Virus record (IMG/VR): IMGVR_UViG_3300048587_000396
Location: 1-57,115 of that record
Direction: 5' to 3' (one strand)
DNA: 57,115 bases
Source: a virus
In this document: in pieces, positions 4,879-53,076 of the stretch
Layout: each line of letters starts with the position of its first letter
Position numbering within the stretch: position 1 is the first letter of the stretch
Position numbers and translations under genes: made by a program
The notes under the pieces: model-generated
Told to the model about the DNA's origin: nothing
What the model saw: the letters and a program-made list of their open reading frames with translations, nothing else
Database searches by the model: none

Positions 4879-4882
4879 TCCG

Positions 4883-8169: not shown

Positions 8170-8486
8170 TGGCGCTGCCACTCGATCTCATCTCGCCTCT
8201 CCGAAAGCTGATTGGCCTGTTCGGGGAGAGCGTGACCTACACGTCGCCCGACGGAACCGAGACGTGGACCATCGTGGCGTCGGTTCAGGTGCCGGTCGAG
8301 GCGCAACTCATGCAGGACTTCGACCAGAACGCGCTGATGGTGTTCGTTGTGGCGGCCGATGTCAATGTCGTGCCCGTGTCCATGGGAACCGTTCTGGTTC
8401 GTGGACGCACACGGACAGTGGAGGAGGTAGTGGTGGAGGCTCCGCAGGGAATCGCCATTTACTATCGCCTGAGGGTGCGCGGATGA
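8169..8486 (+). CDS. Head closure / head-tail joining protein
   Basis: 105-aa beta-rich protein starting with a one-base overlap (TGATG). Size, position after the adaptor, and the pattern of a short helix followed by five strands (VTYTSPDG..., TVLVRGRTRTVEEVVVEAP) match phage stopper proteins of the SPP1 gp16 / HK97 gp9 type. The call rests on context more than motif. Confidence 0.6.
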   Translation: MALPLDLISPLRKLIGLFGESVTYTSPDGTETWTIVASVQVPVEAQLMQDFDQNALMVFVVAADVNVVPVSMGTVLVRGRTRTVEEVVVEAPQGIAIYYRLRVRG

Positions 8487-8908
8487 GCTCGAACACCGTT
8501 CGCGAAGCCTTTCGTATGGGATGGCCGGTCCTCACGCCGACGCTGCCCTACATCGAAACCCTCAACGTTCCGATCTCCGATGCGGAAGCGGAAGCACTCC
8601 CCGACGTCTGGGGGAGTTTCGCGTTCAACGCAGAGCGAGATGCCGCCATCACCATGGGCTCGCGTCCGTGGTATGAAGAGACCGGGACTGCCTCGGTTAT
8701 GATCTTCGCCAAGTCCGGCAAAGGAGATCTGGCAGCGGCCGCGATGGCCGAACAGGTGAAAGTCGCTTGGTCCGCATGGATCAACGATGCGAAAGACGTC
8801 TGGGTGCGTGAGACTGCGGGTCCGCGTCCCTACCTCGACTCCTCCGTGGGAAATTGGCTGGTGATCACGGTGGATCTTTCCTACATCTACCAGCGTCGAA
8901 CCCCATAG
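8483..8908 (+). CDS. Tail terminator protein
   Basis: 141 aa, starting with a 4-base ATGA overlap. N-terminal helix VREAFRMGWP, then YIETLNVPISDAEAEALPDVWGSF, the ordering seen in lambda gpU-like and gp17-like tail terminators; the C-terminus is a beta strand (NWLVITVDLSYIYQ). It would cap the tail tube and join it to the head. Position directly before the tube protein supports this. Confidence 0.7.
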   Translation: MSSNTVREAFRMGWPVLTPTLPYIETLNVPISDAEAEALPDVWGSFAFNAERDAAITMGSRPWYEETGTASVMIFAKSGKGDLAAAAMAEQVKVAWSAWINDAKDVWVRETAGPRPYLDSSVGNWLVITVDLSYIYQRRTP

Positions 8909-8922
8909 GAAAGGAAGACACC

Positions 8923-9570
8923 ATGGCCCGCGAAAGCACCATTGGTTCGATGTTCTACCTCGAGGCCTCCCGTGCAACGGCCGTCGCCTTCTCGGCCGTC
9001 ACCAAGGGAGCCACCACCAGCCTCACCGTTGCGTCCGCTCCGCCGGGCGTCGAGGCAGGATCCTGGATTGTGATCAGCGGCAGCGACCTTCCGTCGCTCG
9101 ATCGCACGAGCCCGCATCGCGTGATCAGCGCCAGCGCATCGGCCGTGGTCGTCGACACCGACACGACGGCCGACGTTCCGGCAGGGACCGCGGGGGAGCT
9201 CGTGCTCCTGACGATGCAGGAGGTCTGCCTGACCGAATTCACGCCGAGCGCGCCCGAGCCGGGCGAGGTCGATGTCACCACGATGTGTGATACGGTGCGT
9301 CGGACGGTCGCGGGTCTGTCCAGCCCCGGTTCGATCTCGTTCGGCGGTCCGTTCGACATGGAGGAGGCCGGAATGCTGGCCCTCATCGCAGCGCAGAAGG
9401 ACGGCGTGGCGCGCGGGTTCTCCTGGGTCACGCGTGGTGGTCAGGCCGCCAGCATGTTCGGTCAGGTGGCGAGCTTCGTGGGCGCTCCGCAGGGCGTCGA
9501 GCAGGCCGTCACCTACTCCGGCAGCTTCCAGGTCCAGGATGGACCGTTCTACTACAAGGAGCTTCCCTGA
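8923..9570 (+). CDS. Major tail tube protein
   Basis: 215-aa tube subunit with its own strong ribosome site (AGGAAAGGAAG). The sequence is rich in small residues and beta strands: an N-terminal ESTIGSMFYLEA segment, an inserted Ig-like/carbohydrate-type loop region around 30-90, and a C-terminal VTYSGSFQVQDGPFYYKELP. Location between tail terminator and frameshifted chaperones is the usual place for the tube gene. Confidence 0.78.
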   Translation: MARESTIGSMFYLEASRATAVAFSAVTKGATTSLTVASAPPGVEAGSWIVISGSDLPSLDRTSPHRVISASASAVVVDTDTTADVPAGTAGELVLLTMQEVCLTEFTPSAPEPGEVDVTTMCDTVRRTVAGLSSPGSISFGGPFDMEEAGMLALIAAQKDGVARGFSWVTRGGQAASMFGQVASFVGAPQGVEQAVTYSGSFQVQDGPFYYKELP

Positions 9571-9857
9571 TGCTGCGTGAGATCGATGTCGAAGCGCCCT
9601 CCTGGCAGGAGGGCGTCACTCGCATTCGAGAGCCCCGAGTGCGCGATTTCATCGCCGCTCGGAAGATCGACGACGAGCAGGAGCGGACAGTCAACTTGCT
9701 CGGCGCGATGGTGCTGGACAAGGATGGCAAGCCGGTCGGTGTGGAGGCGATCCTCGAAGCTTCGGTTGCGGCCCTCGAGGAGCTCGCGACGGTCGTGCCT
9801 CGTCTTCTGAAGCGCGAGGTCACGGCTGATCCCCCTTTGGACCAGACGAGCGGCTGA
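9570..9857 (+). CDS. Tail assembly chaperone (gpG analogue)
   Basis: 95-aa product of unshifted translation. The charged N-terminus (REIDVEAPSWQEGVTRIREPRVRDFI) and helical C-terminus match lambda-gpG-like chaperones that coat the tape measure before tube polymerisation. It starts with a 1-base overlap with the tube stop. Near its end lies a slippery heptamer from which the longer product is made. Confidence 0.75.
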   Translation: MLREIDVEAPSWQEGVTRIREPRVRDFIAARKIDDEQERTVNLLGAMVLDKDGKPVGVEAILEASVAALEELATVVPRLLKREVTADPPLDQTSG

Positions 9858-10168
9858 GCTTCCGTCTGGCCCTGTCGCTGGGAATGACTGTCGAGGAGCT
9901 CCACAATCGCATGTCTCTGGGGGAGTTCCGTCGCTGGGCTATGTTCCTGTCCGAGGAGCCGACGGTAGGGGAGCGCATTGATCTTGTCGGGGGCATCATA
10001 GCGTCGACCCTCGCCAATATCAATCGGGGCAAGACTAGCAAAGTCTACGTCCCTACGGACTTCATGCCCATCGCGGCGAGACAGCGAGAGGCTGCCGAGG
10101 ACGCACTTAGCGAAGAGGAGTTCGCCGCGCTTCAACTCAAGAAGTTCCGCGCAGCTATGGGAGGGTGA
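9570..10168 (+). CDS. Tail assembly chaperone, -1 frameshift product (gpGT analogue)
   Basis: Frame 1 runs 9570-9839 and, after a -1 shift on CCCTTTG, continues 9839-10168, giving about 199 aa. The second frame is open from just after a TGA at 9827-9829 and encodes RLSFRLALSLGMTVEELHNR, a segment typical of the T domain, well before any ATG (first at 9884). Absence of a separate start for this conserved part and the ideal slippery site argue for programmed frameshifting. Known family practice is a low fixed G:GT ratio. Confidence 0.8.
9833..9839 (+). promoter_or_regulatory. Programmed -1 ribosomal frameshift slippery site
   Basis: C CCT TTG in the zero frame is a perfect X XXY YYZ heptamer. 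After the shift the tRNAs read CCC and TTT. It sits 18 bases before the zero-frame stop, as in lambda-like G/T pairs. Confidence 0.8.
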
Positions 10169-32619: not shown

Positions 32620-33048
32620 TCAGACTCCGGTGCTGCCGAATCCCCCTGCACCGCGCTCGGTGGGTGACAACTCCGGGACGTGGTTGAGGCTCGCCCGAAT
32701 GAACGGAGCAAGGACAGCCTGCGCGATGCGATCGCCGCGAGTGACCTCGTAATTCGCGTCGCCCAGGTTCATGAGCACGATGAACAGCTCCCCGCGATAG
32801 TCGTAGTCCAGAGTGCCGGGCGAGTTGAGCACGAAAATCTTGTGCTTCGCCGCGAGGCCCGATCGGCTGCGGATCTGCAACTCGTATCCGGGCGGCACCT
32901 CGAACATCAGGCCGGTGCGATAGATGCGGTGCATCCCGTAGTAGATCGTTCCCGTATCGGCGCTGGAGATGTCCATCCCTGCCGAGCCGTCGGTGGCATA
33001 CTCCGGGAGACGAACGTAGTGCTCCAGTGTCGCGATTTTGATTTCCAC
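32620..33048 (-). CDS. dut: dUTP diphosphatase (dUTPase)
   Basis: 142 aa, trimeric-type dUTPase that turns dUTP into dUMP. All five motifs are visible: DGSAGMDI, RSRSGLA, GTLDYDYRGE, GDRIAQAVLAPF and the C-terminal RGAGGFGSTG. It keeps uracil out of DNA and feeds dUMP to the thymidylate synthase-like enzyme at 39195-40160. Confidence 0.93.
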   Translation of the reverse strand: MEIKIATLEHYVRLPEYATDGSAGMDISSADTGTIYYGMHRIYRTGLMFEVPPGYELQIRSRSGLAAKHKIFVLNSPGTLDYDYRGELFIVLMNLGDANYEVTRGDRIAQAVLAPFIRASLNHVPELSPTERGAGGFGSTGV

Positions 33049-33070: not shown

Positions 33071-34963
33071 TCAATCAACTTCCACCGTCTTGCCCTGTCC
33101 CCAGGACGGGCCGACCTCCAGGTCACAGACGACCGGCACCAGAAGCTCGGCCGCGCTGTTCATGACCTTGGCGCATTCACGTGCCTCATCCTCCGATTCC
33201 ACCGCGAAGCCGAGCTCGTCGTGGACCGACACCAGCACGCGGAACCCCGCCTTGTCAGCTGCGATCATAGCCGCCTTGGTCATGTCGGCCGCCGAGCCCT
33301 GGATCAGCTTGTTGAACGCCTTGTGGAGATACCACCGTTCACCCGCGACCATCGGGAAGCGGCACTTCCGACCGAGCAGCGTCTTGATGTAGCCTCGGCG
33401 CCTCGCCGCCTTGCCGACCTCGTTGGACAATTCGCGCATGAACGGAACGAGCTCGTCGTATTTCTCCAGAAGCTCCTCCCCCTCAGGCCCTGGCCGCAGG
33501 ACCACCCGCTTCTTCGCCGCCCACCAATCCTCGGTGAACGGCAGGCCGAGCGCCGCGCACAGACTGCCGGCTCCCTGCCCATACATCTGCGCGAGGTTGA
33601 GGATCTTGGCCTTCTTGCGGGGGATCTCCATCAAGTCAGCCACGAGCTGGTGAAGGTCGAGGCGCGGGTTCTCGCGATACTTGGCCGCGAGCTCGAGCGC
33701 GCTCTCGATCTCGATGGCAGCGCCGAAATGCACGGCGAGTCGTGGCTCCTGCGAGGAGTAGTCGCACGCCGCCCAGAGCGGCTTGTCCTCGTCTCCGACG
33801 AACAGACCGCGGACAGCCCTCGCCGCTTCCTCGTCTCGCGCTGGAAGCTGCTGGAGGTTCGGATCGGAACACGAGAAGCGACCGGTGACGGTGCCTCCGT
33901 CTTCGCCACGCAGAGACGAGAAGCTGGCGTGGATGCGTCCGTTGTGATGGTGATCGAAGATGAGCCGCTCGACGAATGTCACCCGTTGTCGATCGACGCG
34001 CCGCAGACGCAGGATGGATTGAGCCACGTCGTTGTCCGTCAGCGATTCCAGCCATCCCGCCTTGAGCGACGGATCGCCCTTCACCTTGGTCAGGGGGAAT
34101 TCCTCGATGCCGCTCTTTCGCAGCGCAGCGATCTGGACCTCGGTGTCCCACGGGCTGATGGTCTCCCCCGTGATCTCCAGCAGATGCGCGCTGACCTCCT
34201 CCTGCTCGATGATCAGCTTCTCGTGCAGCTTCTTCGCCTTGCTGAGCGAGACTGCCACGCCGCGCCGCCGCATACGATAGAGCACCGCGAGGAGCTCCAT
34301 CTCCATGTCGTAGATCTCGCGCACCTCGTCGTTGTCCAGCATCGGCATGAAGTGCTGGTGAAGACGCCACGTGACTTCCACATCCTGCTCGGCGTAGGGA
34401 CCGATAATCGTGCTCGGCATCATGTGGATGTTCGCGCCTCGCTTGCTCTTCTTGATGCCGTAGGCTTTCGCCCAATCGTCCATCAGCGAGGTGTCCTTGC
34501 CGACACCGAGATAGTCCTTGCCGAGATTGTCCAGAGAATATGACCGGCGATATTCGTCGAGAAGCGGAGCCTGCACCTGGACATCGTGGATGGCGCCCGC
34601 GAACAAGACCCCCTCGTTCTCGAGCCAGCCGATATCGTAGTTCGCGTTGGCGAAACACCACGAAAGGTCCTTGCGCTTCGCCTGATACGCGAGCCAGCTG
34701 AAGAAGCTCAGCTCGGACTTGTGCCAGTTATTCCCGCCGCGGTGACGGAGCGGATAGTAGAGCGGTGGAGTGTTGTTGACTTTCAGCGCCACGCCCACGA
34801 TGTGTCCGTTGTCGAACGCCCATCCCGGTCCACGCTCGATGAGCTCAGGGTCCTTGGTCTCGGTATCGCAGGCGATCACCGATCCCTCGGGGATGTCGGG
34901 CAGCTCACGCGGGGGAACCCAGCTGACATCCACCTTGTAGTCTCCTCTGAGTTTGACTTTCAT
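33071..34963 (-). CDS. Family A DNA polymerase
   Basis: 630-aa replicative polymerase. The 3'-5' exonuclease starts with ACDTETKD (31-38), continues with NANYDIGW (106-113) and YAEQDVEVTW. Polymerase motif A is CDYSSQEPRLA (400-410), motif B KAKILNLAQMYGQG (451-464), motif C SVHDELGF near 578-586. There is no 5'-3' exonuclease domain, as in phage replicases. Leftward operon neighbours are dUTPase downstream and a zinc protein upstream. Confidence 0.95.
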   Translation of the reverse strand: MKVKLRGDYKVDVSWVPPRELPDIPEGSVIACDTETKDPELIERGPGWAFDNGHIVGVALKVNNTPPLYYPLRHRGGNNWHKSELSFFSWLAYQAKRKDLSWCFANANYDIGWLENEGVLFAGAIHDVQVQAPLLDEYRRSYSLDNLGKDYLGVGKDTSLMDDWAKAYGIKKSKRGANIHMMPSTIIGPYAEQDVEVTWRLHQHFMPMLDNDEVREIYDMEMELLAVLYRMRRRGVAVSLSKAKKLHEKLIIEQEEVSAHLLEITGETISPWDTEVQIAALRKSGIEEFPLTKVKGDPSLKAGWLESLTDNDVAQSILRLRRVDRQRVTFVERLIFDHHHNGRIHASFSSLRGEDGGTVTGRFSCSDPNLQQLPARDEEAARAVRGLFVGDEDKPLWAACDYSSQEPRLAVHFGAAIEIESALELAAKYRENPRLDLHQLVADLMEIPRKKAKILNLAQMYGQGAGSLCAALGLPFTEDWWAAKKRVVLRPGPEGEELLEKYDELVPFMRELSNEVGKAARRRGYIKTLLGRKCRFPMVAGERWYLHKAFNKLIQGSAADMTKAAMIAADKAGFRVLVSVHDELGFAVESEDEARECAKVMNSAAELLVPVVCDLEVGPSWGQGKTVEVD

Positions 34964-38002: not shown

Positions 38003-38360
38003 GTAGCAGCCGCTCCAGAGACATCTTCGCGATGCTCAACAGCTCTGGGGAGCCGGTGTCATCGAACGTCGCGATGAGCGCGATGATCGCTTGCTCCTCC
38101 GCCCCCAGATCTCCGTTGGCGTCCAGATACTCCCCGATGGAGATGGGAGCGATGGGGTTCCTGCTCACGTCGATCAACTTGTCCAGGAAGTGCGCGGCCT
38201 TCTGCAGATCCTGGATGCCGTTCTTCTTGCGCCAGCGGGCGACATACTTGGTGATCTGCCCGCCGAGATAGGACATGTCTCGACTGGACACGAGATCCCA
38301 ATGCTGGATCGGCGACTGATAGTGATCGCCGCCGACTTGACGCTCGTTGGGGTCGCTCAT
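37977..38360 (-). CDS. DUF3310 family protein
   Basis: 127 aa from ATG 38360. VGGDHYQSPIQHWDLVSSRDMSYLGGQITKYVARWRKKNG...DLQKAAHFLDKLI is the DUF3310 pattern, common in phages and often labelled nucleotide kinase without proof. Its place beside the HD-domain protein suggests nucleotide metabolism. Its 3' end carries the promoter at 37974-38002. Confidence 0.8.
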   Translation of the reverse strand: MSDPNERQVGGDHYQSPIQHWDLVSSRDMSYLGGQITKYVARWRKKNGIQDLQKAAHFLDKLIDVSRNPIAPISIGEYLDANGDLGAEEQAIIALIATFDDTGSPELLSIAKMSLERLLLAAGGPPG

Positions 38361-39202
38361 AGCAGTCCTGCCTCCTTCGCGTAATACCACAGCTCGCGGG
38401 GGATTTCCCGCTCGCTTCGTTGCAGATAGTCGGCGATGCGCAACGACACCGCGACGTAGTTCTGGTTGCCGAGCTTCATCTCTCGCAGAGTGTAGAGGCC
38501 CGCCTCGATGAGGTCCGCCCACTCCAGCCACGGACGGAGCTTCGGGGGAACGTCCCTCAGGCCCATCATCTTGGACATGACAATCTCGAGATTCTTGTGA
38601 TCGTCAGTTCGGCCGGGGCGCGGCATGTCGCCGATCTCCCCCTCGACCAGGTCATGGTCGAGCGCCGCCTCGACGAGCGTCAGCCTGTCCTTCGCGGAGC
38701 CTGGGAACAGCCGAGACAGCAGGAAGGCGACCGCCCACGAATGCTCGGCGATGGTCTGGCGATGCAGCGACTGCATCGTGTGCCAGCGCGTGACCGAGTG
38801 TCCGTAGTCGATCAGTGTAGAGATGTCGGCCGGGCCTCCTTCCTTGGAGGGCTGCTCCCTCGATGGCGCATGAGCAGGTCGGACAGTATCGTGTCCACCT
38901 CGGCCACCGTCGTCCCCGAGTGCAGGAGTTCCCAGAGCATCACCTCCACTCGGCGAAGGGTTATCTCCGAGGACTCCCCCGTCGGGAGCATCGGTGTCTT
39001 GTGATGCTCGTTCTGAATCCGCTGAAGCGATCGGCAATGTCGGCACGCGCAGCCTCCTACGTTGATCTTCGGGGACATTGTGATAGGCCCTCCATAGATG
39101 ATGGTCGCAATACGGACGGCCCTGAACAATTGGATCTCCGCACATTCTGTCGTCTTCGATCCATTGGCAAGTTCCGGGGGGCGAACTTATGTATCTAGGC
39201 AC
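38357..39202 (-). CDS. GcrA-like zinc motif fused to HD-domain nucleotidase
   Basis: 281 aa in one open frame from GTG 39202, which overlaps the thymidylate synthase-like stop. Residues 12-40 show C12, C21, C32 and H35 in TCQWIEDDRMCGDPI and GRPYCDHHLWRAY, like the C-terminal zinc part of the alphaproteobacterial regulator GcrA. Residues 136-281 are a YfbR-like HD domain: RWHTMQSLHRQTIAEHSW (H154 within) and LDHDLVEGEIGD (H183, D184), known in relatives for 5'-deoxynucleotidase activity. Residues 45-128 are a low-complexity linker that is overprinted by another gene. An alternative is that the HD part starts independently near 38830 from a non-ATG codon behind AAGGAAGGAGG. Confidence 0.65.
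   Translation of the reverse strand: MPRYISSPPGTCQWIEDDRMCGDPIVQGRPYCDHHLWRAYHNVPEDQRRRLRVPTLPIASADSERASQDTDAPDGGVLGDNPSPSGGDALGTPALGDDGGRGGHDTVRPAHAPSREQPSKEGGPADISTLIDYGHSVTRWHTMQSLHRQTIAEHSWAVAFLLSRLFPGSAKDRLTLVEAALDHDLVEGEIGDMPRPGRTDDHKNLEIVMSKMMGLRDVPPKLRPWLEWADLIEAGLYTLREMKLGNQNYVAVSLRIADYLQRSEREIPRELWYYAKEAGLL
38812..39078 (-). CDS. Overprinted gene within the GcrA-like/HD frame
   Basis: 88 aa from ATG 39078 with ATGGAGGGCC (GGAGG about 9 bases upstream). The frame differs from the HD gene and has mostly G/C third positions, unlike the other frame over the same stretch. Contains CACRHCRSLQRIQNEH, possibly zinc-binding, and a helix RVEVMLWELLHSG...VDTILSDLLMRHR. It begins just after the zinc motif and ends at the first residues of the HD domain. 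Function unknown. Confidence 0.55.
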   Translation of the reverse strand: MSPKINVGGCACRHCRSLQRIQNEHHKTPMLPTGESSEITLRRVEVMLWELLHSGTTVAEVDTILSDLLMRHRGSSPPRKEARPTSLH

Positions 39203-40160
39203 GACGGTTGAGCCACCTCCTCGCTGCTACGATCCAGTCGTTGTTGGTCTCGGGCAGGATATCGACCGCCTGAGTGTCGCCCTTCTTGTGCTCGCGATGG
39301 GCGTGGACCATCGGAACGACCACCGACTGGAAGAAGTGAGACGTGAACTGGCTCGGATTGATGGGCGCTCGTGCGGTGAGCAGGCTCATCAGGACGTTGG
39401 CATCCTCGAGCGTGACCTCGGGGGAGAGGGTCGCCAGAGGAGTCGAGTAGACCTCGCCGGTATCATATTCCGTCGAGACCGCATCAGGTATCGATTGGAG
39501 ATTCTTGCCCGGCCCGAAGCCCGTGTAGATGTGCGCGTTCGTGCTGATCTGCGTCAGCGTGCCGACCCTGGTCTGGGTGGATGCCGACAGATACTCCAGC
39601 AGGAAGCTGAACTGCACGATGTTGGCGCCGAGCATTCCCCAGAACAGGTCGTTGCTCCGATTGAAGACGGTGAGGTGCATCGTGTCGTCGATGATGCGCG
39701 GGACCGCCATCAGGTTGCAGGGAATGTCGCGGCTGACAATGCCTAGATCTCGCTCCGCCTCCCAGATGCTCAGCACAGCTCGCCGGTTTCCTGGTTCCTG
39801 GTTGAGCATCATGACGACTTCCGAGAACTGCTCGTGGAGGCGCGCTCCGTAATGCCCCCGGAGGGTCTGGCCGTCGTCGCTGAACGTGTAGAACCGGTCG
39901 GCGATGTCTGCCAGGGGAATCACGGAGTCCACCTTGCTGAGGATCGACAGGCCGTCGACGAGGTGCAGGAACGGATTGATCTTGCGCCACGGGTTGAACA
40001 TCACCCGCTCGACGGGATTCAGCGTCTCGACAGCGAACGGTCCCGGATGGGAGATCACGTCGCCGTTGCGCGAGCCCTGCCGAACTCCGAAGTTCGACAG
40101 CCTCCGAGCCGCCTGGAACAGCAGATGGTCGCCGTTGCGACCGGTCAAGTGACTGAACAT
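39195..40160 (-). CDS. Thymidylate synthase-like enzyme (possible dUMP hydroxymethyltransferase)
   Basis: 321 aa. Catalytic Cys148 in SRDIPCNLMA (PCN in place of the usual PCH), FNRSNDLFWGMLGANIVQF for the QRS..D..lG....N pattern, with Asn180 at the position that selects dUMP rather than dCMP, and HIYTG near 215. Folate-dependent methylation of dUMP is the default; hydroxymethylation is equally possible and is favoured by the base-modification genes next door. The promoter at 40185-40213 drives this gene and those downstream. Confidence 0.8.
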   Translation of the reverse strand: MFSHLTGRNGDHLLFQAARRLSNFGVRQGSRNGDVISHPGPFAVETLNPVERVMFNPWRKINPFLHLVDGLSILSKVDSVIPLADIADRFYTFSDDGQTLRGHYGARLHEQFSEVVMMLNQEPGNRRAVLSIWEAERDLGIVSRDIPCNLMAVPRIIDDTMHLTVFNRSNDLFWGMLGANIVQFSFLLEYLSASTQTRVGTLTQISTNAHIYTGFGPGKNLQSIPDAVSTEYDTGEVYSTPLATLSPEVTLEDANVLMSLLTARAPINPSQFTSHFFQSVVVPMVHAHREHKKGDTQAVDILPETNNDWIVAARRWLNRRA

Positions 40161-40184
40161 GATGGTCCCCTGTTGCGTGCGCCT

Positions 40185-40213
40185 AGCCTAGCGCGGCCTG
40201 CCGCCGCGCGCCA
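40185..40213 (-). promoter_or_regulatory. Sigma70-like promoter for the thymidylate synthase-like gene
   Basis: Minus strand: TGGCGC, 17 bases, TAGGCT; leader with GGGGA before ATG 40160. Confidence 0.7.
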
Positions 40214-40217
40214 GCCC

Positions 40218-41141
40218 CTACAACTCCTTGGCTACGAAGTCGGCCAGGATACGCGCGACAGTCGCTGGATCATGGTGGCTCCTCAGATAGTCGTAGGCGT
40301 CCACCGGCTTCCGAGAGCGGTCACGCATGAGATCGATGATGTCCTGCGCCGACGAGATCGGCACAACGTAGTCCTGCAGAGGGCTCGGCCACGCCTTCAG
40401 CCAATCCGCAGCGACTGCCGTGATGCAGCCCGCCTTCAGACCGTAGAGGGTCGCATATTCGCTACCTCCGCCATCGCCCTTCCACGGCTTCGTCAGATTG
40501 AACGCGATCTCCGTGCTCGCTGCCAGAGCGCCCGTCTCGTCAGGCTCGTAGGCCATCTGGTCGTCGGGAGCGAAGCCGGGCCAGGGCGGATTGCCGAAAT
40601 GCTTGCGGAGGTAGTGGAACGCGTAGAGGCGGCTGATCTCGCCACGGAACTGCACCGGCTCCTTCCTGAGCCAGATGTTCGCCTCCATGATGAGCTCGAT
40701 GTTCTTGCGCGAAGTGACGCGCGTGAACGACATCCCCCGGAACTTGCGGGCAGGGGGAATCGGCTTCGCCGAGATCGGATGCGGCACGAACTGGCAGCCG
40801 GGATAGCGGCTCGCATACGACTCGCGGATCACGAACGTCTTCTCGTTGGGATATTCGGAGAGGACCTTGCAGTGATCCTGCTCGGTGGAATTGTGCAGGA
40901 AGCGATAGAAGCCCGCGTCCAGCATCCGCCGCTGATCGTCCTCCGAATGTGACTGATAGTTCGTGTGGAGTAGGATCTTCGGGCCTCGCTCCGCCAGAAT
41001 GTCGGCGAGCGTCTCGTCGCGGCTCATGGTCCAGAAGCGATACGGGATCTTCGCGCGCTTGAACCCGAGCACCATGTATCGCATGAACGGGCCGATACCG
41101 TTGCGGCGATGTTTCATGCCCTGCGAAATGAGGTGGATCAC
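40218..41141 (-). CDS. Glycosyltransferase (GT4-like)
   Basis: 307 aa. Two-lobed layout: N-terminal MIHLISQGMKHRRNGIGPFMRY, a switch region SFTRVTSRKNIELIMEANIWL, and C-terminal GDGGGSEYATLYGLKAGCITAV, which resembles the nucleotide-sugar contact (E-loop) of GT-B enzymes. In this neighbourhood the acceptor may be modified DNA; a cell-surface glycan is an alternative. 4-base overlap with the next gene. Confidence 0.6.
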   Translation of the reverse strand: MIHLISQGMKHRRNGIGPFMRYMVLGFKRAKIPYRFWTMSRDETLADILAERGPKILLHTNYQSHSEDDQRRMLDAGFYRFLHNSTEQDHCKVLSEYPNEKTFVIRESYASRYPGCQFVPHPISAKPIPPARKFRGMSFTRVTSRKNIELIMEANIWLRKEPVQFRGEISRLYAFHYLRKHFGNPPWPGFAPDDQMAYEPDETGALAASTEIAFNLTKPWKGDGGGSEYATLYGLKAGCITAVAADWLKAWPSPLQDYVVPISSAQDIIDLMRDRSRKPVDAYDYLRSHHDPATVARILADFVAKEL

Positions 41142-41389
41142 GCCCGCCCCTCCAACACGTCATTGCCGAACTTCTCGAGCTCTTCGCTGAGGTTGTCCAG
41201 CAGGTTCAGGTCCTCATCGGTGATCTCGTCCGGATCTTCCGTCTCGGACAGGTGGCCCGTCATGATCCCGAGGAACGCCTGAGCTCCCGCATAGAAGGCT
41301 CGACGCATCTCCTGCCGCTGGATCGGCGGCGCCTCCTGCAACAGGGCGGCTTCGAAGGACTCCCATTGCTCCTTGATGGTCTTGCTCAT
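41138..41389 (-). CDS. Small conserved-looking phage protein
   Basis: 83 aa. Pattern TIKEQWESFEAALLQEAPPIQRQEMRRAFYAGAQAFLGIM recalls small phage proteins of unknown function found in several phages. An acidic C-terminus follows (SETEDPDEITDEDLN). Overlaps both neighbours by 4 bases. Confidence 0.6.
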   Translation of the reverse strand: MSKTIKEQWESFEAALLQEAPPIQRQEMRRAFYAGAQAFLGIMTGHLSETEDPDEITDEDLNLLDNLSEELEKFGNDVLEGRA

Positions 41390-42381
41390 TCGTAGATCTC
41401 CTTCACTCGCGGTGTGAACGGGTCCCCCTCGATGGCGCGAGCGGCCACTCGGTAGGTCGCTTCGGTAGGAGCCAGCAGCTCCTCCTTGCCGAACTTGTCG
41501 GGCAGCAGACCGGGGCGGTTCACCGCCTCGTTGCATCCCAAGCACGGAATCATTGCGCGGCCATCGTGCATCAGGATGCGGCGCGCGGCCTGGAAATGCT
41601 TGTGATTCCACAGCTCGTCGAGCGGCATCTGTCCAACGTTCGCAATCTTGTAGTGTCCAGGCCAGTCCACGCAGCAGAGAGCGACATCGCCATTCCAGCG
41701 TATCGCCAGCTCTCGGAACGGCTTCGCGCACCGCTTCTTGGCATACGACTCGTCGGGAGGCCCGCTGTTCAGCGCGTGATTGCTGAGATGCGAGTGCGTT
41801 CCCTTGGTCGAGACGCTGATGTCCTTCACCCAGACCAGCTTCTTGCCGCGATGACGCTGATGCGGATTGCCTTCCGGGTTCTCGGGATACTCGATGAACT
41901 GGACCCCGTTCACACTCCCTGGGGGATATTTCTCGCGAAGCGCCGGAACGATGCGCGCGTGCCGATAATCGTCGAGCGCGAAGGTGTTCAGGCCAGCGTC
42001 GAAGAGCTCCTGGAGCATGTTCCCCTTGAGTAGTCCCCCGCCGTTCGAGGTCACCATGATGTAAGAACGAGGGAGGTAGTGGCGGAACTTCCAGACGATG
42101 GTCGGAAGATCCTTGTTGAGCGTGGGCTCGCCGTGCATGGCGAACTCCAGACGCGGGTTCCAGCTGAGCCGCTTGATCTCCTTGGCGATGTGGGTCGCCA
42201 GATCGATGTTCATATACTTGAACGGGCCGGAGTTCCTGCCGTGGTTCATGCCGACGGAATGCGCTCCGTTCGCACGAATCGATTGGATGCCGCAGAAAGC
42301 GCAGGCGAGATTGCATCCCTCGACCGGCTCCATCTGGATGGCGAACGGTGGTGTCTGTTCAACCACGGGAATTCCTTTCAC
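41386..42381 (-). CDS. Radical SAM / SPASM-like enzyme
   Basis: 331 aa. The 4Fe-4S site is EGCNLACAFC (C23, C27, C30). A SPASM-like second cluster is likely: RCAKPFRELAIRWNGDVALCCVDW and later CLGCNE. Radical SAM enzymes occur in phage base-modification clusters, for example M6-like thymidine hypermodification. The product cannot be named from sequence. Overlaps neighbours on both sides. Confidence 0.8.
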   Translation of the reverse strand: MKGIPVVEQTPPFAIQMEPVEGCNLACAFCGIQSIRANGAHSVGMNHGRNSGPFKYMNIDLATHIAKEIKRLSWNPRLEFAMHGEPTLNKDLPTIVWKFRHYLPRSYIMVTSNGGGLLKGNMLQELFDAGLNTFALDDYRHARIVPALREKYPPGSVNGVQFIEYPENPEGNPHQRHRGKKLVWVKDISVSTKGTHSHLSNHALNSGPPDESYAKKRCAKPFRELAIRWNGDVALCCVDWPGHYKIANVGQMPLDELWNHKHFQAARRILMHDGRAMIPCLGCNEAVNRPGLLPDKFGKEELLAPTEATYRVAARAIEGDPFTPRVKEIYE

Positions 42382-42604
42382 GGAGGAGCGCGGCCAGTCG
42401 GCTGCGATGCTGAACGAGGGTCGAGGCGAAGCGGATGCAATGGCCGAGGTGGCTGTCGGTCATCTCGTGCATGTAGAAAATGACGTTGCGATCCTTGGTT
42501 CGCCATTGATCCTGGCCGCATCGCGGTTCGGTGGCCCGACGCTGAGCGTGCCAGTCTCGCTTGCCGACGCCAGAGACGCAATTCGCTTGTTTCTCGTCGA
42601 TCAT
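42359..42604 (-). CDS. Small hypothetical protein
   Basis: 81 aa from ATG 42604 (ATGA overlap). Its 3' part (YMHEMTDSHLGHCIRFASTLVQHRSRLAALLRER) is a conserved-looking phage helix pair; it overlaps the radical SAM start by 23 bases. Three Cys in the first two-thirds. Function unknown. Confidence 0.6.
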   Translation of the reverse strand: MIDEKQANCVSGVGKRDWHAQRRATEPRCGQDQWRTKDRNVIFYMHEMTDSHLGHCIRFASTLVQHRSRLAALLRERNSRG

Positions 42605-43395
42605 GTCTTGGCGCTCTTCAACGCTTGTTCCCACTTGATGCGAACGTCCTTGCGGTTACCGAACGCTCCCCCGGTGGAGTTCTGCTTCTGCACGATCTCG
42701 ACGAACGCCGGATGGAGACGCTTGAGCTCCTCCGCCGCCGCGCTCTGCTTCTCGTGGTCGCGGTAGTCGGAACACCCGCCGGGAAGCTGCGTCTGCTGCT
42801 GATCCTGCACCCAATTCGTCAAGATGAAGTTCGGGTAGCCGCGACGGAGCAATTGGAGGGTGACGTCGAAGTCCTCCATGACCGGCACTCGGCCGTGGAC
42901 GGAGGCCAGGAACGGGATCGTCTGGTATCCCAGGACGCGCAGCATTCGGCCCACGATCTTGACGGGATATTTCTTGTCGTTGTTGCGAGCGTTGTTCCCC
43001 TGGCGGATGTCCACGCTCCCGTGAGCATACTTGTTGAGGTATGCCGCCACGAGCTCGATCATCTCGACGGTCTGCTCGGGGGAGTTCCGGTGCAGATGCC
43101 AGTCTTCCAGCGACAGCCGATGGTAGAAGCGGAGGTCGTCGTCCATCATGATGAACCTGTCGCGGTCCAGCTGACGAGAGTGCTTTCCGCACCACCAGCG
43201 CGTCTTGGCGATGCCGTCCAACGGACACGACAGCAGGCTCGCACGGTGACGCTCGGCCATCTTGGCATAGCGATCTCGTTGCTCCTTGGGCACCACGAGA
43301 TAGACCGTGAAATCGCGCTTGGCGCCGTCCAGAGCCTCCAGCGTCAGGGATCGATCGAACCGAGACCGGCTCGGCACATAGACTGCGAAACTCAC
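42601..43395 (-). CDS. TET-associated-type DNA glycosyltransferase (GT-A)
   Basis: 264 aa. N-terminal FAVYVPSRSRFDRSLTLEAL, then VYLVVPKEQRDRY, GIAKTRWWCG and the metal-binding FIMMDDDLRF (DDD at 85-87), followed by VMEDFDVTLQLLRRGYPNF. This order fits the TET-associated glycosyltransferases that computational work links to sugar transfer onto hydroxymethylated bases in phage DNA. I infer thymine hydroxymethyl as acceptor because a dUMP-type synthase is encoded. Confidence 0.7.
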   Translation of the reverse strand: MSFAVYVPSRSRFDRSLTLEALDGAKRDFTVYLVVPKEQRDRYAKMAERHRASLLSCPLDGIAKTRWWCGKHSRQLDRDRFIMMDDDLRFYHRLSLEDWHLHRNSPEQTVEMIELVAAYLNKYAHGSVDIRQGNNARNNDKKYPVKIVGRMLRVLGYQTIPFLASVHGRVPVMEDFDVTLQLLRRGYPNFILTNWVQDQQQTQLPGGCSDYRDHEKQSAAAEELKRLHPAFVEIVQKQNSTGGAFGNRKDVRIKWEQALKSAKT

Positions 43396-43601
43396 TGCAC
43401 TCCCCTCCGCTTCTGCGATGCTGCGACCTTCTCTCGATGCCTCGCCGCCTCGTCGAGGTCGGTCAGGACTTCGGGATCATACGGGTTCCGCATGGACTGC
43501 GGCAGGGGGAGTCCGTAGAACCTCCCTTCCGGCATCTGAATGTGCCGATGTTCCTTATAGGCGCCCTTCGCGATGAGGGTCCCCCGGAACCGCTTCGCCA
43601 T
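43392..43601 (-). CDS. Small basic protein, unknown
   Basis: 69 aa. KRFRGTLIAKGAYKEHRHIQMPEGRFYGLPLP followed by a charged helix. 4-base overlap with the glycosyltransferase and 1-base overlap with the next gene. Confidence 0.55.
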   Translation of the reverse strand: MAKRFRGTLIAKGAYKEHRHIQMPEGRFYGLPLPQSMRNPYDPEVLTDLDEAARHREKVAASQKRRGVQ

Positions 43602-43807
43602 CAGAACGACTCCCTCTCTGCCGCCTCGCTGAGCAGCCGACCAGCTTCGGCGGTGTTGCGATCATAGGCTTTCTGATCGCCGCGCTCCAAATCCTGCGCT
43701 GCGATCCACACGCGAACTGTCGCCCGAGCCCTCAAGGCTGCGGGACTGGTGAGGATGGACTGCGTGGGTTCGGGCACCGCCCTCCCGCGAGTGTCGAGGA
43801 GCGTCAT
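43601..43807 (-). CDS. Small hypothetical protein
   Basis: 68 aa. Contains RATVRVWIAAQDLERGDQKAYDRNTAEAGRLLSEAAER, a helical segment. TGATG and ATGA overlaps show tight translational coupling. Confidence 0.55.
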   Translation of the reverse strand: MTLLDTRGRAVPEPTQSILTSPAALRARATVRVWIAAQDLERGDQKAYDRNTAEAGRLLSEAAERESF

Positions 43808-43995
43808 CCGAAGGTGGCCTTCCAGTCTTCGGCGGTCATGCCGCTCATGAGGAACTCGCGCTGGTCGGCCGTGAGGCCGGGCATGGCCTTCTGAATGAGC
43901 TCACCGGACTGCCACCGCAGAAGCTGCTCCGGAGTGACGGGGATTTCGAGAGTATTCTCGCGCTGCGTGACGGGGCTTTTTCTGGTGACGAGCAT
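43804..43995 (-). CDS. Small conserved phage protein
   Basis: 63 aa from ATG 43995 with AGGAGG. RKSPVTQRENTLEIPVTPEQLLRWQSGELIQKAMPGLTADQREFLMSGMTAEDWKATFG matches a small domain seen often in phages, rich in conserved hydrophobic positions; I do not know its role. First gene after the promoter at 44024-44052. Confidence 0.7.
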   Translation of the reverse strand: MLVTRKSPVTQRENTLEIPVTPEQLLRWQSGELIQKAMPGLTADQREFLMSGMTAEDWKATFG

Positions 43996-44023
43996 GCGAA
44001 CCTCCTGAACGTGCCGCACCGCA

Positions 44024-44052
44024 AGCATAGCGCGCCCGCGCCTCTAGGGCAA
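44024..44052 (-). promoter_or_regulatory. Sigma70-like promoter for the modification operon
   Basis: Minus strand: TTGCCC, 17 bases, TATGCT, with the best -10 of the set. Leader with AGGAGG before ATG 43995. Confidence 0.75.
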
Positions 44053-44901
44053 GTGCGGCCTGTAAACGGAACGCACGGATCCCTGGCTCAGCTGAAGTCG
44101 ACGATACTTGTCGAACTCGCAACAGCAGTTCTGCACATCGTGGAGCTCCATGCGCTCAGCGATGCGGGGGAGTTCGCGTCTTACGATCTTGAGGAGATTG
44201 ACCATCATTGGGACTGCCTCGTGCTGGAAGACCCGCTTCACGCGGAAGGTCCCCCGCAATCGTGCCAGCCCGCGAGTCGAGCCTGGTCCAAGGGGAGCCC
44301 ACTCGTAGCGGTCCTCCCATTCGCCGGGATAGACGTGGCGCAGATCGGCGACAATCTGGCCCGCCATAAAGCTGCCAAGCCCCGGCCTGCCGCGCAAGGC
44401 GCTCCACGTGGCCTCCATACTTGAGGTGTCGATCTCGGGAGGGTCATTCCACAACGGAGTCAGGATGCGCTCCACGATCTGCAGATACTTCGGGCCTCCG
44501 TAGGCTCCGTTGATGATGTAGGCTCCCGTGAATATCTTCTCGCCCTTCAACGCTCGCTTGCTCAGCGCGCGGATGTATGCGGTCGGATCGAACGGGATTG
44601 GCGGAGGGAGAGCGGCGAGGGTGTCGGGCCAGTTGATCAAGCGACCAACGGCGCACGCGAGCACGGCCTCACTCGGCGAGGAATAGATATAGCTGCGATG
44701 CCAATTGAGGAGCCAGCGGCTCACTCGATCGTCCATGCGAACGACATTGCACCAGCGAAATCTGTCGAGGAAGGGGTCGGTGGACCAGGGACGCGGGAGT
44801 CCTTGCTCTTTGCGGAGACGAACGGCCTCCCGCTCCTGTATCCAATAGAGGAACTTGTCGACTTCAGCCGGGACGAAGGCCTCGGGGGAGAGCACCTTCA
44901 T
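44044..44901 (-). CDS. Thymine-modification protein: hydroxymethyl-dU kinase helical / aGPT-PPlase superfamily
   Basis: 285 aa. The signature KFLYWIQEREAVRLRKEQGLPRPWSTDPFLDRFRWCNVVRMDDRVSRWL (residues 16-64) matches proteins once named alpha-glutamyl/putrescinyl thymine pyrophosphorylases and now split into hydroxymethyl-dU DNA kinase helical domains and amino-acid:DNA transferases. Later TGAYIINGAYGGPK and RPGLGSFMAGQIVADLRH resemble helix-hairpin-helix glycosylase folds. No P-loop kinase domain is attached. A hairpin covers its start codon. It strongly suggests hypermodified thymine in this phage. Confidence 0.75.
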   Translation of the reverse strand: MKVLSPEAFVPAEVDKFLYWIQEREAVRLRKEQGLPRPWSTDPFLDRFRWCNVVRMDDRVSRWLLNWHRSYIYSSPSEAVLACAVGRLINWPDTLAALPPPIPFDPTAYIRALSKRALKGEKIFTGAYIINGAYGGPKYLQIVERILTPLWNDPPEIDTSSMEATWSALRGRPGLGSFMAGQIVADLRHVYPGEWEDRYEWAPLGPGSTRGLARLRGTFRVKRVFQHEAVPMMVNLLKIVRRELPRIAERMELHDVQNCCCEFDKYRRLQLSQGSVRSVYRPHLP

Positions 44902-51281: not shown

Positions 51282-51492
51282 GATTCCACTCTCCGCACCA
51301 GTCGTTCGGGCTCACCAGCGGCCAGAAGGTCTTGCTGTAGATCTCGGCGGCCGTGACCACGGTCGGGGGATATCGCCGGCACTCGAACTTGTCGATCACC
51401 AGCATTCCCTCGCGCCTGTGGATGCAGGTCCGGCACTCCCTCACAGGACCACCAGAGTGTTCTGCGATCTCGTGACCGCCGTGTAGAGCCAT
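51262..51492 (-). CDS. Small cysteine protein, unknown
   Basis: 76 aa from ATG 51492 (GGGAGGTGAGG upstream), starting inside the helicase 3' end. VRECRTCIHRREG, KFECRRYPPTVV and NDWCGEW follow a pattern of small phage proteins with C..C...CRR.PP...W...DWCGE and likely bind metal. Confidence 0.6.
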   Translation of the reverse strand: MALHGGHEIAEHSGGPVRECRTCIHRREGMLVIDKFECRRYPPTVVTAAEIYSKTFWPLVSPNDWCGEWNHDEDSR

Positions 51493-52631
51493 TGCCTCAC
51501 CTCCCTCTCGGGCATGACCCGCTTCATGCCCGCTCGTTGATCCACGACAACGACGTGCTTCCACTCGTTGCCCTGCGCTCGGTGCGCCGTGATGCAGTAA
51601 CCGAACGAGAACAGGTTCTGCCCGTCCGTATCTCGCGGCACCTTCGACGTCACCATCTGAAAGTCCTCGACCTCGACCATCTGGCCGAATTCATTACGGA
51701 CCAGCAGCGAGGGCTCCGTCGCAACGACGGTGACGATCTCGTTGTTGAGCAAGTCCCCCGCGTTCGAGCGGGAGATCAGACGTTCGCCGACCTGCGGATC
51801 CTCGCCAACGTAGCCGAGTTTCGAACGAATACGGTCGTTCCACTCGTCAACAGTGTCGTTTCGCCACGCTACGATCATTGCGTCGCCGGTCGCTATGAGC
51901 ATTCCCAGACGCTCGCCATCGACCGATTTCCGCCGGAACGGCTTCAAGTCGAACTCGTCCGAGGTCCTGATTTCCTGCGCGAGCTGCAGAATTGGCCCAT
52001 CGTGGCGATGGACATGCGTGAGGGTCACGGTGGGCTCGTAGTCGGAGTAGATGTTGCGACCCTTGACCGGGGGAAGCTGGAACTCGTCGCCGACCATCAC
52101 GATGAGGCGTCCATCGCGGCGCATCTCTTCGAAATATCCCGTGGTGACCATGGAGGATTCGTCCATGACAGCGACGGGACGGATGAACCGATCTCGCTTA
52201 TCCTGGAGCGCTCCCCGCAGGTCATCGCCCTCAAACTCGCTGATGTGCGTGAATCCCAGCTTGCGCTTTTCCTTCAGCGAGTCGCGCTTCGCCCGGACGG
52301 TCGCTATCTTGTCGACATTCTGGGGGCGTTCCGCCAGGGCTTCCTGGAGCTCGTCGTCCAACTCGCGGAACCGCTTCGTGTATTCCGATCGCGAGACGAA
52401 TTCCCCCCGGTAGAAGGTCATTGCCTCGTCGATCCCCTTCGACTGGAGGCGCCTCGCGGCAGCATTCGTGGGAGCATAGACCACCGCGTCAGTCCCGAGG
52501 CGACGCTTGAGCTCAGAGATTGTCGTGGTCTTGCCCGTCCCTGCCTGACCGTCGATGATGACCAGCCCCCGTCCCTGCTCGCGCGCTCGCAGAACAGTGG
52601 TGATGGCCTCCTCTTGACTGTCACTGAGCAC
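51441..52631 (-). CDS. RecD/Dda-like superfamily 1 helicase
   Basis: 396 aa from GTG 52631 (GGAAGG upstream). Motif I DGQAGTGKTTT near 30-40, motif Ia APTNAAARRL, motif II VMDESSMV, motif III MVGDEFQLPPV, and C-terminal motifs YCITAHRAQGNEW and WLYTAVTRSQ. No separate domain is fused. Probably unwinds DNA ahead of the phage polymerase. Confidence 0.9.
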   Translation of the reverse strand: MLSDSQEEAITTVLRAREQGRGLVIIDGQAGTGKTTTISELKRRLGTDAVVYAPTNAAARRLQSKGIDEAMTFYRGEFVSRSEYTKRFRELDDELQEALAERPQNVDKIATVRAKRDSLKEKRKLGFTHISEFEGDDLRGALQDKRDRFIRPVAVMDESSMVTTGYFEEMRRDGRLIVMVGDEFQLPPVKGRNIYSDYEPTVTLTHVHRHDGPILQLAQEIRTSDEFDLKPFRRKSVDGERLGMLIATGDAMIVAWRNDTVDEWNDRIRSKLGYVGEDPQVGERLISRSNAGDLLNNEIVTVVATEPSLLVRNEFGQMVEVEDFQMVTSKVPRDTDGQNLFSFGYCITAHRAQGNEWKHVVVVDQRAGMKRVMPEREVRQWLYTAVTRSQNTLVVL

Positions 52632-53076
52632 TGACCTTCCTCCCTGCGAGCACGAACGCGAAGGGCTCACGTTTGAGGTTGATACCCGCGTGGCAGAAGT
52701 AGAAGCGGCCAGGAACGGGTTCGGCCTTGAGCGCCAGCATGAGGACGCGAGTGGCCTCCTCGAAGGCCTCCTGCGTCGCTCGGTGTTCCGGTCCCATGAG
52801 GTCCATCAGTGCGATGATGTTCGCGGTGAAGATCGGGAGCACCTTCCGCGCCTCGTCCTCAGATATGGGCGCCGTGCTCGCAACAGCCTGATTACGCGCG
52901 AGGCCCTCGTTGTCCGCGCCGCAGATCATGAGACCGCTCCTCGTGGAGAAGGCGACGAGGCTGAGGCCCGGCAGACGAGGCTGACGCTGGATCTCGTCGA
53001 TGGCATTTCGCATTCGGTCGAGCTCCACTCCAGAGACCTCACCGATAAGCGTGTCGATTTCGCTGTTGACGTCCAT
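52621..53076 (-). CDS. Hypothetical protein
   Basis: 151 aa from ATG 53076 (CAGGAG site). Helical; contains DVNSEIDTLIGEVSGVELDRM, a strand LSLVAFSTRSGLMICGAD and a helix EEATRVLMLALKAEP. It heads the leftward block, divergent from the primase gene, so it should be made early. Function unknown. Confidence 0.6.
   Translation of the reverse strand: MDVNSEIDTLIGEVSGVELDRMRNAIDEIQRQPRLPGLSLVAFSTRSGLMICGADNEGLARNQAVASTAPISEDEARKVLPIFTANIIALMDLMGPEHRATQEAFEEATRVLMLALKAEPVPGRFYFCHAGINLKREPFAFVLAGRKVSAQ

Follow-up and report, generated by a model that had tools for sequence, protein, structure and literature searches.

A phage gene cluster predicted to attach a sugar to modified thymine in DNA and to alter it with a radical enzyme

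Introduction

How does a phage complete a hypermodified thymine when its thymine genes are accompanied by two glycosyltransferases, and the DNA kinase is missing? The question is raised by an uncultured phage, IMG/VR virus record IMGVR_UViG_3300048587_000396, of which positions 1 to 57,115 form the window, i.e. the whole stretch of 57,115 nucleotides analysed here. An earlier note on this DNA had predicted a thymine hypermodification cluster at 38357-44901, and held that a mix of two glycosyltransferases without a P-loop DNA kinase fits no pathway known to its author. Our analysis agrees on both counts: the genes lie at this place, all on the minus strand and mostly abutting or overlapping (gaps of -34 to +57 nt), and profile searches and a structure model placed all families that had been named. 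The two glycosyltransferases and the missing kinase are the key point of this cluster, and the gene set as a whole is predicted to attach a sugar to modified thymine in phage DNA, which is then altered by a radical enzyme. Since dozens of environmental phages keep the same set, whereas a search of about 50,700 deposited phage records did not find it, it probably represents an unrecognised phage route for disguising DNA.

Results

The thymidylate-synthase (TS)-like enzyme (39195..40160, minus strand; PF00303, E 7e-13; phrog_5131, E 6e-71), a predicted dUMP 5-hydroxymethylase, carries residues C148 and N180 and can be aligned with gp58 of Pseudomonas phage M6. C148 is invariant in the homologue alignment, as is N180, the Asn already noted at the dUMP-selecting position, in 29/29 aligned homologues, M6 included; N180 was matched to N177 of E. 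coli TS by motif (RSND...GAN), because the corresponding loop of E. coli TS is shorter by one residue. By homology the enzyme belongs with the 5-hmdUMP synthases of M6/SP10-type pathways, and it is predicted to make 5-hmdUMP rather than dTMP; hydroxymethylases of this kind and thymidylate synthases are not separable from sequence alone (PMC5977210). Could the modified pyrimidine instead be 5-hydroxymethylcytosine (hmC), glycosylated as in T-even phages? The nearest solved structure is the CMP 5-hydroxymethylase MilA, and it is chiefly from hmC phages that TAGT and AGT-like enzymes are known. However, all 29 sequences have Asn where a dCMP-type hydroxymethylase would have Asp, including M6 with its modified thymidine in DNA, while HMUDK_hel is a thymidine-pathway protein and a dUTPase is present, all of which makes hmC improbable.

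An HD-domain, YfbR-like nucleotidase (38357..39202, minus strand; domain from about residue 136; PF12917, E 7e-11; phrog_6047; phrog_7076) adjoins the TS gene, as claimed before, and is predicted to shape the dNTP pool; it is present in 53/80 related loci, namely those of the best 80 IMG/VR matches to the radical SAM gene. The dUTPase (32626..33018, minus strand; PF00692, E 4e-27), a predicted source of dUMP, is present as the earlier note had it, but lies downstream of the cluster in the direction of transcription, not upstream. DNA polymerase I (33071..34963, minus strand; phrog_17, E 3e-109) has homologues in 66 of the loci compared.

At the other end of the cluster lies the 285-aa HMUDK_hel protein (44044..44901, minus strand; PF18723, formerly aGPT-PPlase1; E 3e-39). 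It had been described as a hydroxymethyl-dU kinase/aGPT-pyrophosphorylase superfamily protein; the family stands, but the protein is a stand-alone helical domain and homologue of M6 gp55, and not a kinase. Its AlphaFold2 model (pLDDT 91.6) matches the C-terminal part of the SP10 5-hmdU kinase and a PhiW-14 protein. A sequence profile of HMUDK_hel found no match in the PDB, and the best matches of its fold there, HhH 8-oxoguanine glycosylases, are not significant (E 0.29), for which reason we take this likeness as a lead only. We propose that HMUDK_hel binds or presents the modified base as the partner of a DNA-modifying transferase.

If HMUDK_hel is not the kinase, is there one elsewhere? We compared whole records of the window and 31 relatives (n=32) with M6-type controls (n=3), with the provision that most virus records may be incomplete. 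The 5-hmdU DNA kinase PF18748 was detected in 3/3 controls versus 0/32 records, and the amino acid:DNA transferase (ADDT) PF18724 in 3/3 versus 0/32 over cut-off. Profile searches across the whole window record found neither of these nor PF18747, in keeping with the kinase absence proposed earlier; the note had also suggested comparison with profiles of this kind, among which those of HMUDK_hel and TAGT matched and PF18724 did not. None of the 31 relatives had PF18747 or PF18748 over cut-off, one of them (L042) having a single weak P-loop protein under the PF18747 cut-off. A hidden M6-type kinase in the window was sought with PF18748, PF18747, PF18724, AAA_33 and the Pam3 kinase, all below cut-off, and the sub-threshold AAA_33 match proved to be a Dda-like helicase (51441-52670), not a DNA kinase. 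It is thus barely credible that a diverged kinase runs an M6-type pathway here, in which 5-hmdU is phosphorylated and substituted with an amino acid or amine while the glycosyltransferases have another purpose. In favour of such a pathway, M6, Pam3 and RHph_TM26 also have HMUDK_hel, TS and either HD nucleotidase or DUF3310, in the order seen here, but the same profiles that detect PF18748 and PF18724 in every M6-type control find no kinase or ADDT over cut-off in the window and 31 relatives, and PLP and SplB-like enzymes are absent from the window.

What these records do share are HMUDK_hel (31/32) and a glycosyltransferase (32/32), and since the kinase is found in 0/32, HMUDK_hel is common to the known kinase branch and to a glycosyltransferase branch. 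Among loci anchored on HMUDK_hel, TAGT occurs in 50, the kinase in 13, and both in 0. Brevibacterium phage LuckyBarnes, with TS, two TAGT and HMUDK_hel and without a kinase, shows that a glycosyltransferase-only branch exists. We infer, with strong support, that 5-hmdU is glycosylated in place of being phosphorylated.

The first of the two glycosyltransferases, a GT-A enzyme of 264 aa (42601..43395, minus strand; PF20691, E 1e-18; phrog_842, E 9e-49), belongs to the TAGT family at 68.3 bits against a curated cut-off of 27.5. The DDD metal motif reported for this TET-associated-type enzyme corresponds to D85-87 and is invariant in 28/28. TAGT is predicted to move a sugar to a hydroxymethylpyrimidine in DNA, or to its glucoside, and a published report names it as the likely enzyme for adding the second glucose to glucosyl-hmC in T6-like phages (PMC13390438). 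The other glycosyltransferase (307 aa; 40218..41141, minus strand) has no Pfam or PHROG match, nor a match for its sequence profile in the PDB. Its AlphaFold2 model (pLDDT 86.8), however, finds GT-B enzymes as best solved matches in Foldseek (prob 1.00, E 1e-8 to 1e-6, TM ~0.6-0.69), upholding the GT-B assignment. Among them is T4 DNA alpha-glucosyltransferase (AGT, 1ya6/1y8z; E 4e-7, TM 0.67), solved with HMU-containing DNA.

IMG/VR searches with the single GT-B and TAGT sequences of the window gave no match; as both are divergent, relatives were reached via the radical SAM gene as anchor. The best 80 have HMUDK_hel in 68, TAGT in 70 and TS in 72 loci. In whole records, TAGT is present in 28/32, and a GT-B stands in for it in all four others. 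Likewise, after dereplication (60% identity), 22 clusters hold both TS and HMUDK_hel, and none of them is without a glycosyltransferase: 18 have TAGT, and the remaining 4 have GT-B (Fisher p 0.0096). The HMUDK_hel and TAGT profiles are rare (372 and 464 of 50,697 phage records), yet occur together here and in dozens of relatives, which is not chance. Close DNA relatives of the window were not found among deposited phages, and 84,980 bacterial genomes gave one match, in a Patescibacteria MAG; its contig is itself phage-like, and so uninformative on the host.

The enzyme that sets this cluster apart is a radical SAM protein of 331 aa (41386..42381, minus strand; PF04055 and PF13186). The radical SAM/SPASM assignment made earlier can be refined to a BtrN-like enzyme with a twitch/SPASM domain, unlike the SplB-like one of M6: it has CX3CX2C (C23, C27, C30) and one auxiliary cluster, C218, C236, C280 and C283, spaced C-X17-C-X43-C-X2-C (C-X17-C-X43/44-C-X2-C for the BtrN-like twitch). 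These cysteines, and an extra C237, are invariant in 84/84. The nearest solved structure to the family is BtrN (E 8e-23, low identity), a sugar-alcohol dehydrogenase of butirosin biosynthesis (2-DOIA) whose substrate is a free aminocyclitol. C237 occupies the position aligned to a Phe of BtrN, so that an epimerase is possible; HygY and NeoN are twitch epimerases with a cysteine hydrogen donor. Plausibly, then, the phage enzyme oxidises a cyclitol or sugar alcohol, or epimerises it, if its substrate resembles that of its nearest solved relative.

Where it would act is less certain. Since BtrN takes a small molecule, the phage enzyme could take a free or nucleotide-bound sugar, and many phages with TS, HMUDK_hel and TAGT have no radical SAM gene, which makes it an add-on. 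Both observations suit a pathway in which 5-hmdU is glycosylated, and the substrate of the radical SAM enzyme is the NDP-sugar that serves as donor, the base or its 5-hydroxymethyl carbon, or a free metabolite later attached. We hold this to be rather unlikely: the gene follows glycosyltransferases and not the kinase branch, both loci in which the radical SAM gene is present twice (L081, L084) have a second TAGT gene as well, and no sugar-nucleotide biosynthesis gene was found among the selected neighbours profiled. Action on the DNA-bound sugar is our preferred reading.

A few relatives (L046, L049, L059) have the radical SAM gene without HMUDK_hel, and L046 has a GT-B neighbour among structural genes, so that 5-hmdU may not be the acceptor in every case. 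Relatives of this sort, which have the radical SAM gene but not TS or HMUDK_hel, could indicate that DNA is not modified at all, the TS being an ordinary one and the glycosyltransferases and radical SAM enzyme decorating virion or host-surface glycans. This seems very improbable to us, as TS, HMUDK_hel and Pol I accompany these genes in nearly all cases, TAGT is a DNA glycosyltransferase family, and the TS profile is nearest to a hydroxymethylase. Among isolate phages, the window radical SAM protein found none at E<=1e-8, and a marine homologue as query found four distant matches (22-25%), including the 'BtrN' of a Campylobacter phage.

The intervals of the cluster hold small open reading frames, all on the minus strand: three putative, short overlapping ORFs (69, 68 and 74 aa; 43392..44028) between HMUDK_hel and TAGT, a possible gene of 91 aa (42359..42634) between TAGT and radical SAM, and between radical SAM and GT-B a protein of 82 aa (41138..41386; start MSKTIKEQWE), the in-frame tail of ORF 41138-42316, which overlaps its neighbours by 1 and 4 nt.

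Discussion

Taken together, we consider it somewhat probable that the product of this cluster is a glycosylated thymine in phage DNA, edited by the radical SAM enzyme. In such a pathway, dUTPase and HD nucleotidase would provide dUMP and deplete the dTTP pool, and the TS homologue, judging by its family and N180, would convert dUMP to 5-hydroxymethyl-dUMP, to be phosphorylated (by host kinases, we assume) to 5-hmdUTP, which the phage Pol I would build into DNA. Once the DNA is complete, HMUDK_hel may present 5-hmdU to TAGT and/or GT-B, which would form a mono- or disaccharide on the 5-hydroxymethyl group by transfer of one or more hexoses. Where pathways of the M6 and SP10 type phosphorylate with the 5-hmdU DNA kinase, this one would transfer sugar. 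The BtrN-like enzyme could then abstract a hydrogen at a carbinol carbon of the DNA-bound sugar, which would be oxidised to a ketone, as by BtrN, or epimerised, with C237 as candidate hydrogen donor, as in HygY and NeoN. The modified DNA would be protected from restriction and other DNA-targeting defences, and its final base is plausibly new.

More tentatively, and here our doubts slightly prevail, this would constitute a further thymine branch: a DNA glycosyltransferase would stand in for the 5-hmdU DNA kinase, the sugar would be oxidised or epimerised by a BtrN-like enzyme while attached to intact DNA, and HMUDK_hel would be a general hmdU-presenting factor and not part of a kinase. If true, the product would be a keto- or epi-sugar thymine glycoside of a kind not known in nature. 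To our knowledge, no radical SAM enzyme is known to work on a sugar bound to DNA, and such an activity would be the first of its kind. As new enzymology it would also provide tools for labelling DNA, given that a keto sugar is a chemical handle. The prediction concerns a specific, measurable and new class of DNA base in uncultured environmental phages. It also reassigns HMUDK_hel (aGPT-PPlase1), a marker for annotating 'kinase-type' hypermodification, to a role in two chemistries; an M6 pathway read from TS and aGPT-PPlase1 alone would be the wrong annotation for these phages.

How does the cluster relate to known systems? M6, and also Pam3 and RHph_TM26, share with it a TS homologue, HMUDK_hel, HD nucleotidase and/or DUF3310, and Pol I in the same order. 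However, M6 has a 5-hmdU DNA kinase, ADDT, a PLP enzyme and a SplB-like radical SAM enzyme, in place of which the window carries TAGT, GT-B and a BtrN-like one. In pelagiphages of the HTVC023P type, TS and aG/PT-PPlase1 were described, in some cases with a deoxynucleotidase and a beta-glucosyl-HMC-alpha-glucosyltransferase (PMC9599517), so that TS, HMUDK_hel, HD and TAGT types occur together. The term 'radical SAM' is nowhere in the text of that paper, whose authors likened the set to M6 and, in the parts we consulted, made no proposal of glycosylation for phosphorylation (PMC9599517). In Yersinia phage YerA41, an oligosaccharide on thymidine, a substitution of ~1 kDa, was observed (PMC9023294), which is a similarly sugar-like thymidine substitution in phage DNA, though the genes responsible are not established. 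The cultured LuckyBarnes has the same TS, TAGT and HMUDK_hel types and likewise lacks the kinase, but is without a radical SAM or GT-B gene; our literature search found no report on its DNA chemistry. In T-even glucosylation (AGT, and TAGT of T6), a hydroxymethyl-pyrimidine is also made before replication, and related enzymes attach the sugar once it is in DNA, whereas the TS homologue of the window is of the dUMP type, and HMUDK_hel and radical SAM are extra. Base J of kinetoplastids, a glucosyl-hydroxymethyluracil, resembles the expected first glycosylated product, but arises by JBP oxidation of T in DNA and not from 5-hmdUMP. BtrN, HygY and NeoN, finally, share the radical SAM and twitch domains and carbinol chemistry on sugars or cyclitols, with identical auxiliary cysteine spacing in BtrN; what distinguishes the phage family is its extra invariant cysteine beside a cluster ligand, and its linkage to DNA-modification genes.

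Gene content of the cluster

The genes of the cluster all lie on the minus strand, from 38357 to 44901, most of them overlapping or abutting. Profile searches of the window, a virus record of 57,115 bases, confirmed the families that the earlier note had named for an HD nucleotidase (38357-39202), a thymidylate synthase (TS)-like enzyme (39195-40160), a radical SAM/SPASM enzyme (41386-42381), a GT-A glycosyltransferase of the TAGT family (PF20691; 42601-43395) and the stand-alone helical domain protein HMUDK_hel (PF18723; 44044-44901). The gene at 40218-41141 has no match among Pfam or PHROG profiles; its designation as a GT-B glycosyltransferase is backed by an AlphaFold2 model (14 homologues, pLDDT 86.8) that matches solved GT-B enzymes, including the DNA-bound T4 alpha-glucosyltransferase. 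A dUTPase is indeed encoded nearby (32626-33018), but it sits downstream of the cluster in transcription order rather than upstream. Compared with gp59 of phage M6, the HD protein is longer at its N-terminus, with an extension of about 130 residues that begins Cys/His-rich (CQW...C...YCDHH) and includes a linker of low complexity.

The closest solved protein to the TS homologue is the CMP hydroxymethylase MilA, yet the Asn noted earlier at the dUMP-selecting position is kept in 29/29 sequences, M6 included. Work on PhiW-14 illustrates how such pathways run in general: hydroxymethyl-dUMP is made before replication, with further modification afterwards (PMC5977210).

Glycosyltransferases without the DNA kinase

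Phages M6, Pam3 and RHph_TM26, in which thymidine hypermodification is kinase-based, resemble the window in gene order (TS, HD nucleotidase and/or DUF3310, Pol I). In these three genomes, genes that adjoin HMUDK_hel or lie near it encode the P-loop 5-hmdU DNA kinase (PF18748; gp54 in M6) and an amino acid:DNA transferase (ADDT; PF18724, gp51 in M6). PF18748, the related PF18747 and PF18724 were all not found by profile search of the window record, in line with the earlier remark that no P-loop DNA kinase was visible. In whole-record searches of the window and 31 relatives, the kinase was found in 0/32 and ADDT exceeded the cut-off in 0/32, versus 3/3 M6-type controls for each, whereas TAGT exceeded it in 28/32 versus 0/3; HMUDK_hel was present in 31/32. 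All four records lacking TAGT carry GT-B (one a diverged member with a weak Glycos_transf_1 match), so that TAGT and GT-B look interchangeable within the gene set; the window has both.

Scanning IMG/VR with the window radical SAM protein gave 117 relatives, the best 80 of which (39-48% identity) were retrieved. Within about 9 kb of the radical SAM gene, these 80 loci contain TS in 72, TAGT in 70, HMUDK_hel in 68, HD in 53 and GT-B in 16, and a weak kinase-like protein in one. Dereplication at 60% identity left 27 loci, and 22/22 of those with TS and HMUDK_hel have a glycosyltransferase, 18 of them TAGT and exactly the other four GT-B (Fisher p 0.0096). The gene cluster is real, and the core reading of the earlier note, a predicted thymine hypermodification cluster, is correct; that the modification is of DNA thymine we regard as very probable, and the predicted base is, with good though lesser confidence, a glycosylated 5-hmdU.

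With the window protein as query, no member of the radical SAM family turned up at E<=1e-8 in 50,697 deposited phage records. Among 84,980 prokaryote genomes the family occurred in one, on a phage-like contig (L166) with HMUDK_hel, TS, HD and lysis-type genes; its place in a Patescibacteria MAG probably reflects either a binning error or a phage of CPR bacteria. One neighbour on that contig (361 aa, 7059-8144) has no profile match and may represent a third glycosyltransferase type. In L020 (14824-15285) a pyrimidine-dimer-glycosylase-like protein (PF03013) is close to the cluster, and this family occurs in 30 related loci.

In the public record, M6 gp54 (L004, 8411-8974; PF18748 E 8e-18) is labelled 'terminase small subunit', a label also found under HMUDK_hel matches in several related Pseudomonas phage records; this misannotation seems to have spread.

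HMUDK_hel, probably shared by two chemistries

Among the 80 HMUDK_hel-anchored loci closest to the window protein, out of at least 566 and therefore no population estimate, TAGT occurs in 50 and the kinase in 13, never together; after dereplication (21 loci) the counts are 8 versus 6 (p 0.046). Brevibacterium phage LuckyBarnes, which is in culture, carries genes for TS and HMUDK_hel (gp38, PF18723 E 5e-68) along with two for TAGT, and none for the kinase. A minimal set of TS, TAGT and HD occurs in MW202897 (L085, 9992-12290), where HMUDK_hel was not found in the stretch read, and TAGT may thus not always need it. 5-hmdU in DNA would be the substrate common to the kinase and the glycosyltransferases, and the most fitting role for HMUDK_hel is therefore that of a factor handling such DNA on behalf of either transferase. 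A structural model of the protein (pLDDT 91.6) has a match in the 5-hmdU kinase of SP10 and weak ones in amino acid:DNA transferases. The top PDB matches, HhH 8-oxoguanine glycosylases, are not significant, which makes base flipping only a lead.

A BtrN-like radical SAM enzyme

BtrN, named 2-DOIA dehydrogenase (PMC10991966), is the top solved match of the radical SAM family profile (E 8e-23), far ahead of all others. The auxiliary cysteines (C218-X17-C236-X43-C280-X2-C283) have the same spacing as in BtrN, while position 237 is Cys in 84/84 phage sequences and Phe in BtrN. BtrN oxidises a cyclitol alcohol, and from this likeness we infer a sugar-carbinol reaction, which would be a dehydrogenation or epimerisation. 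This is supported by the gene going with glycosyltransferases, not kinases, in the best 80 of 117 loci, and by two phage loci (L081, L084) each having two radical SAM copies and two TAGT genes. It is made less certain by a locus with neither TS nor HMUDK_hel (L046, 7964-9987), and by BtrN itself acting on a free small molecule. We consider it somewhat more likely than not that the phage enzyme acts on this sugar in its DNA-bound form.

In L046 the BtrN-like gene overlaps a GT-B gene near structural genes; TS and HMUDK_hel are likewise missing beside it in L045, L049 and L059, and a different acceptor is possible for loci of this type. On L084, a 95 kb virus contig, the tandem copies (4634-9996) are accompanied by a B12-binding radical SAM protein, without HMUDK_hel, possibly for a more elaborate sugar modification. 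Large Campylobacter phages (OP654737, MW074125, MW373745) encode distant (22%) BtrN-like proteins, one of them annotated BtrN.

Comparison with known systems

The open literature that was searched gave no account of a gene set that includes the radical SAM enzyme. The finding is read as a widespread and apparently unrecognised branch of thymine hypermodification that would rely on glycosyltransferases and be extended by a radical SAM enzyme. In pelagiphages, TS, aG/PT-PPlase1, a deoxynucleotidase and a TAGT-type gene have been described together and likened to M6, in a set that, unlike that of the window, has no radical SAM gene (PMC9599517). In T6-like phages, TAGT is regarded as the probable transferase of the second glucose on glucosyl-hmC (PMC13390438), and YerA41 carries an oligosaccharide-like substitution of thymidine (PMC9023294).
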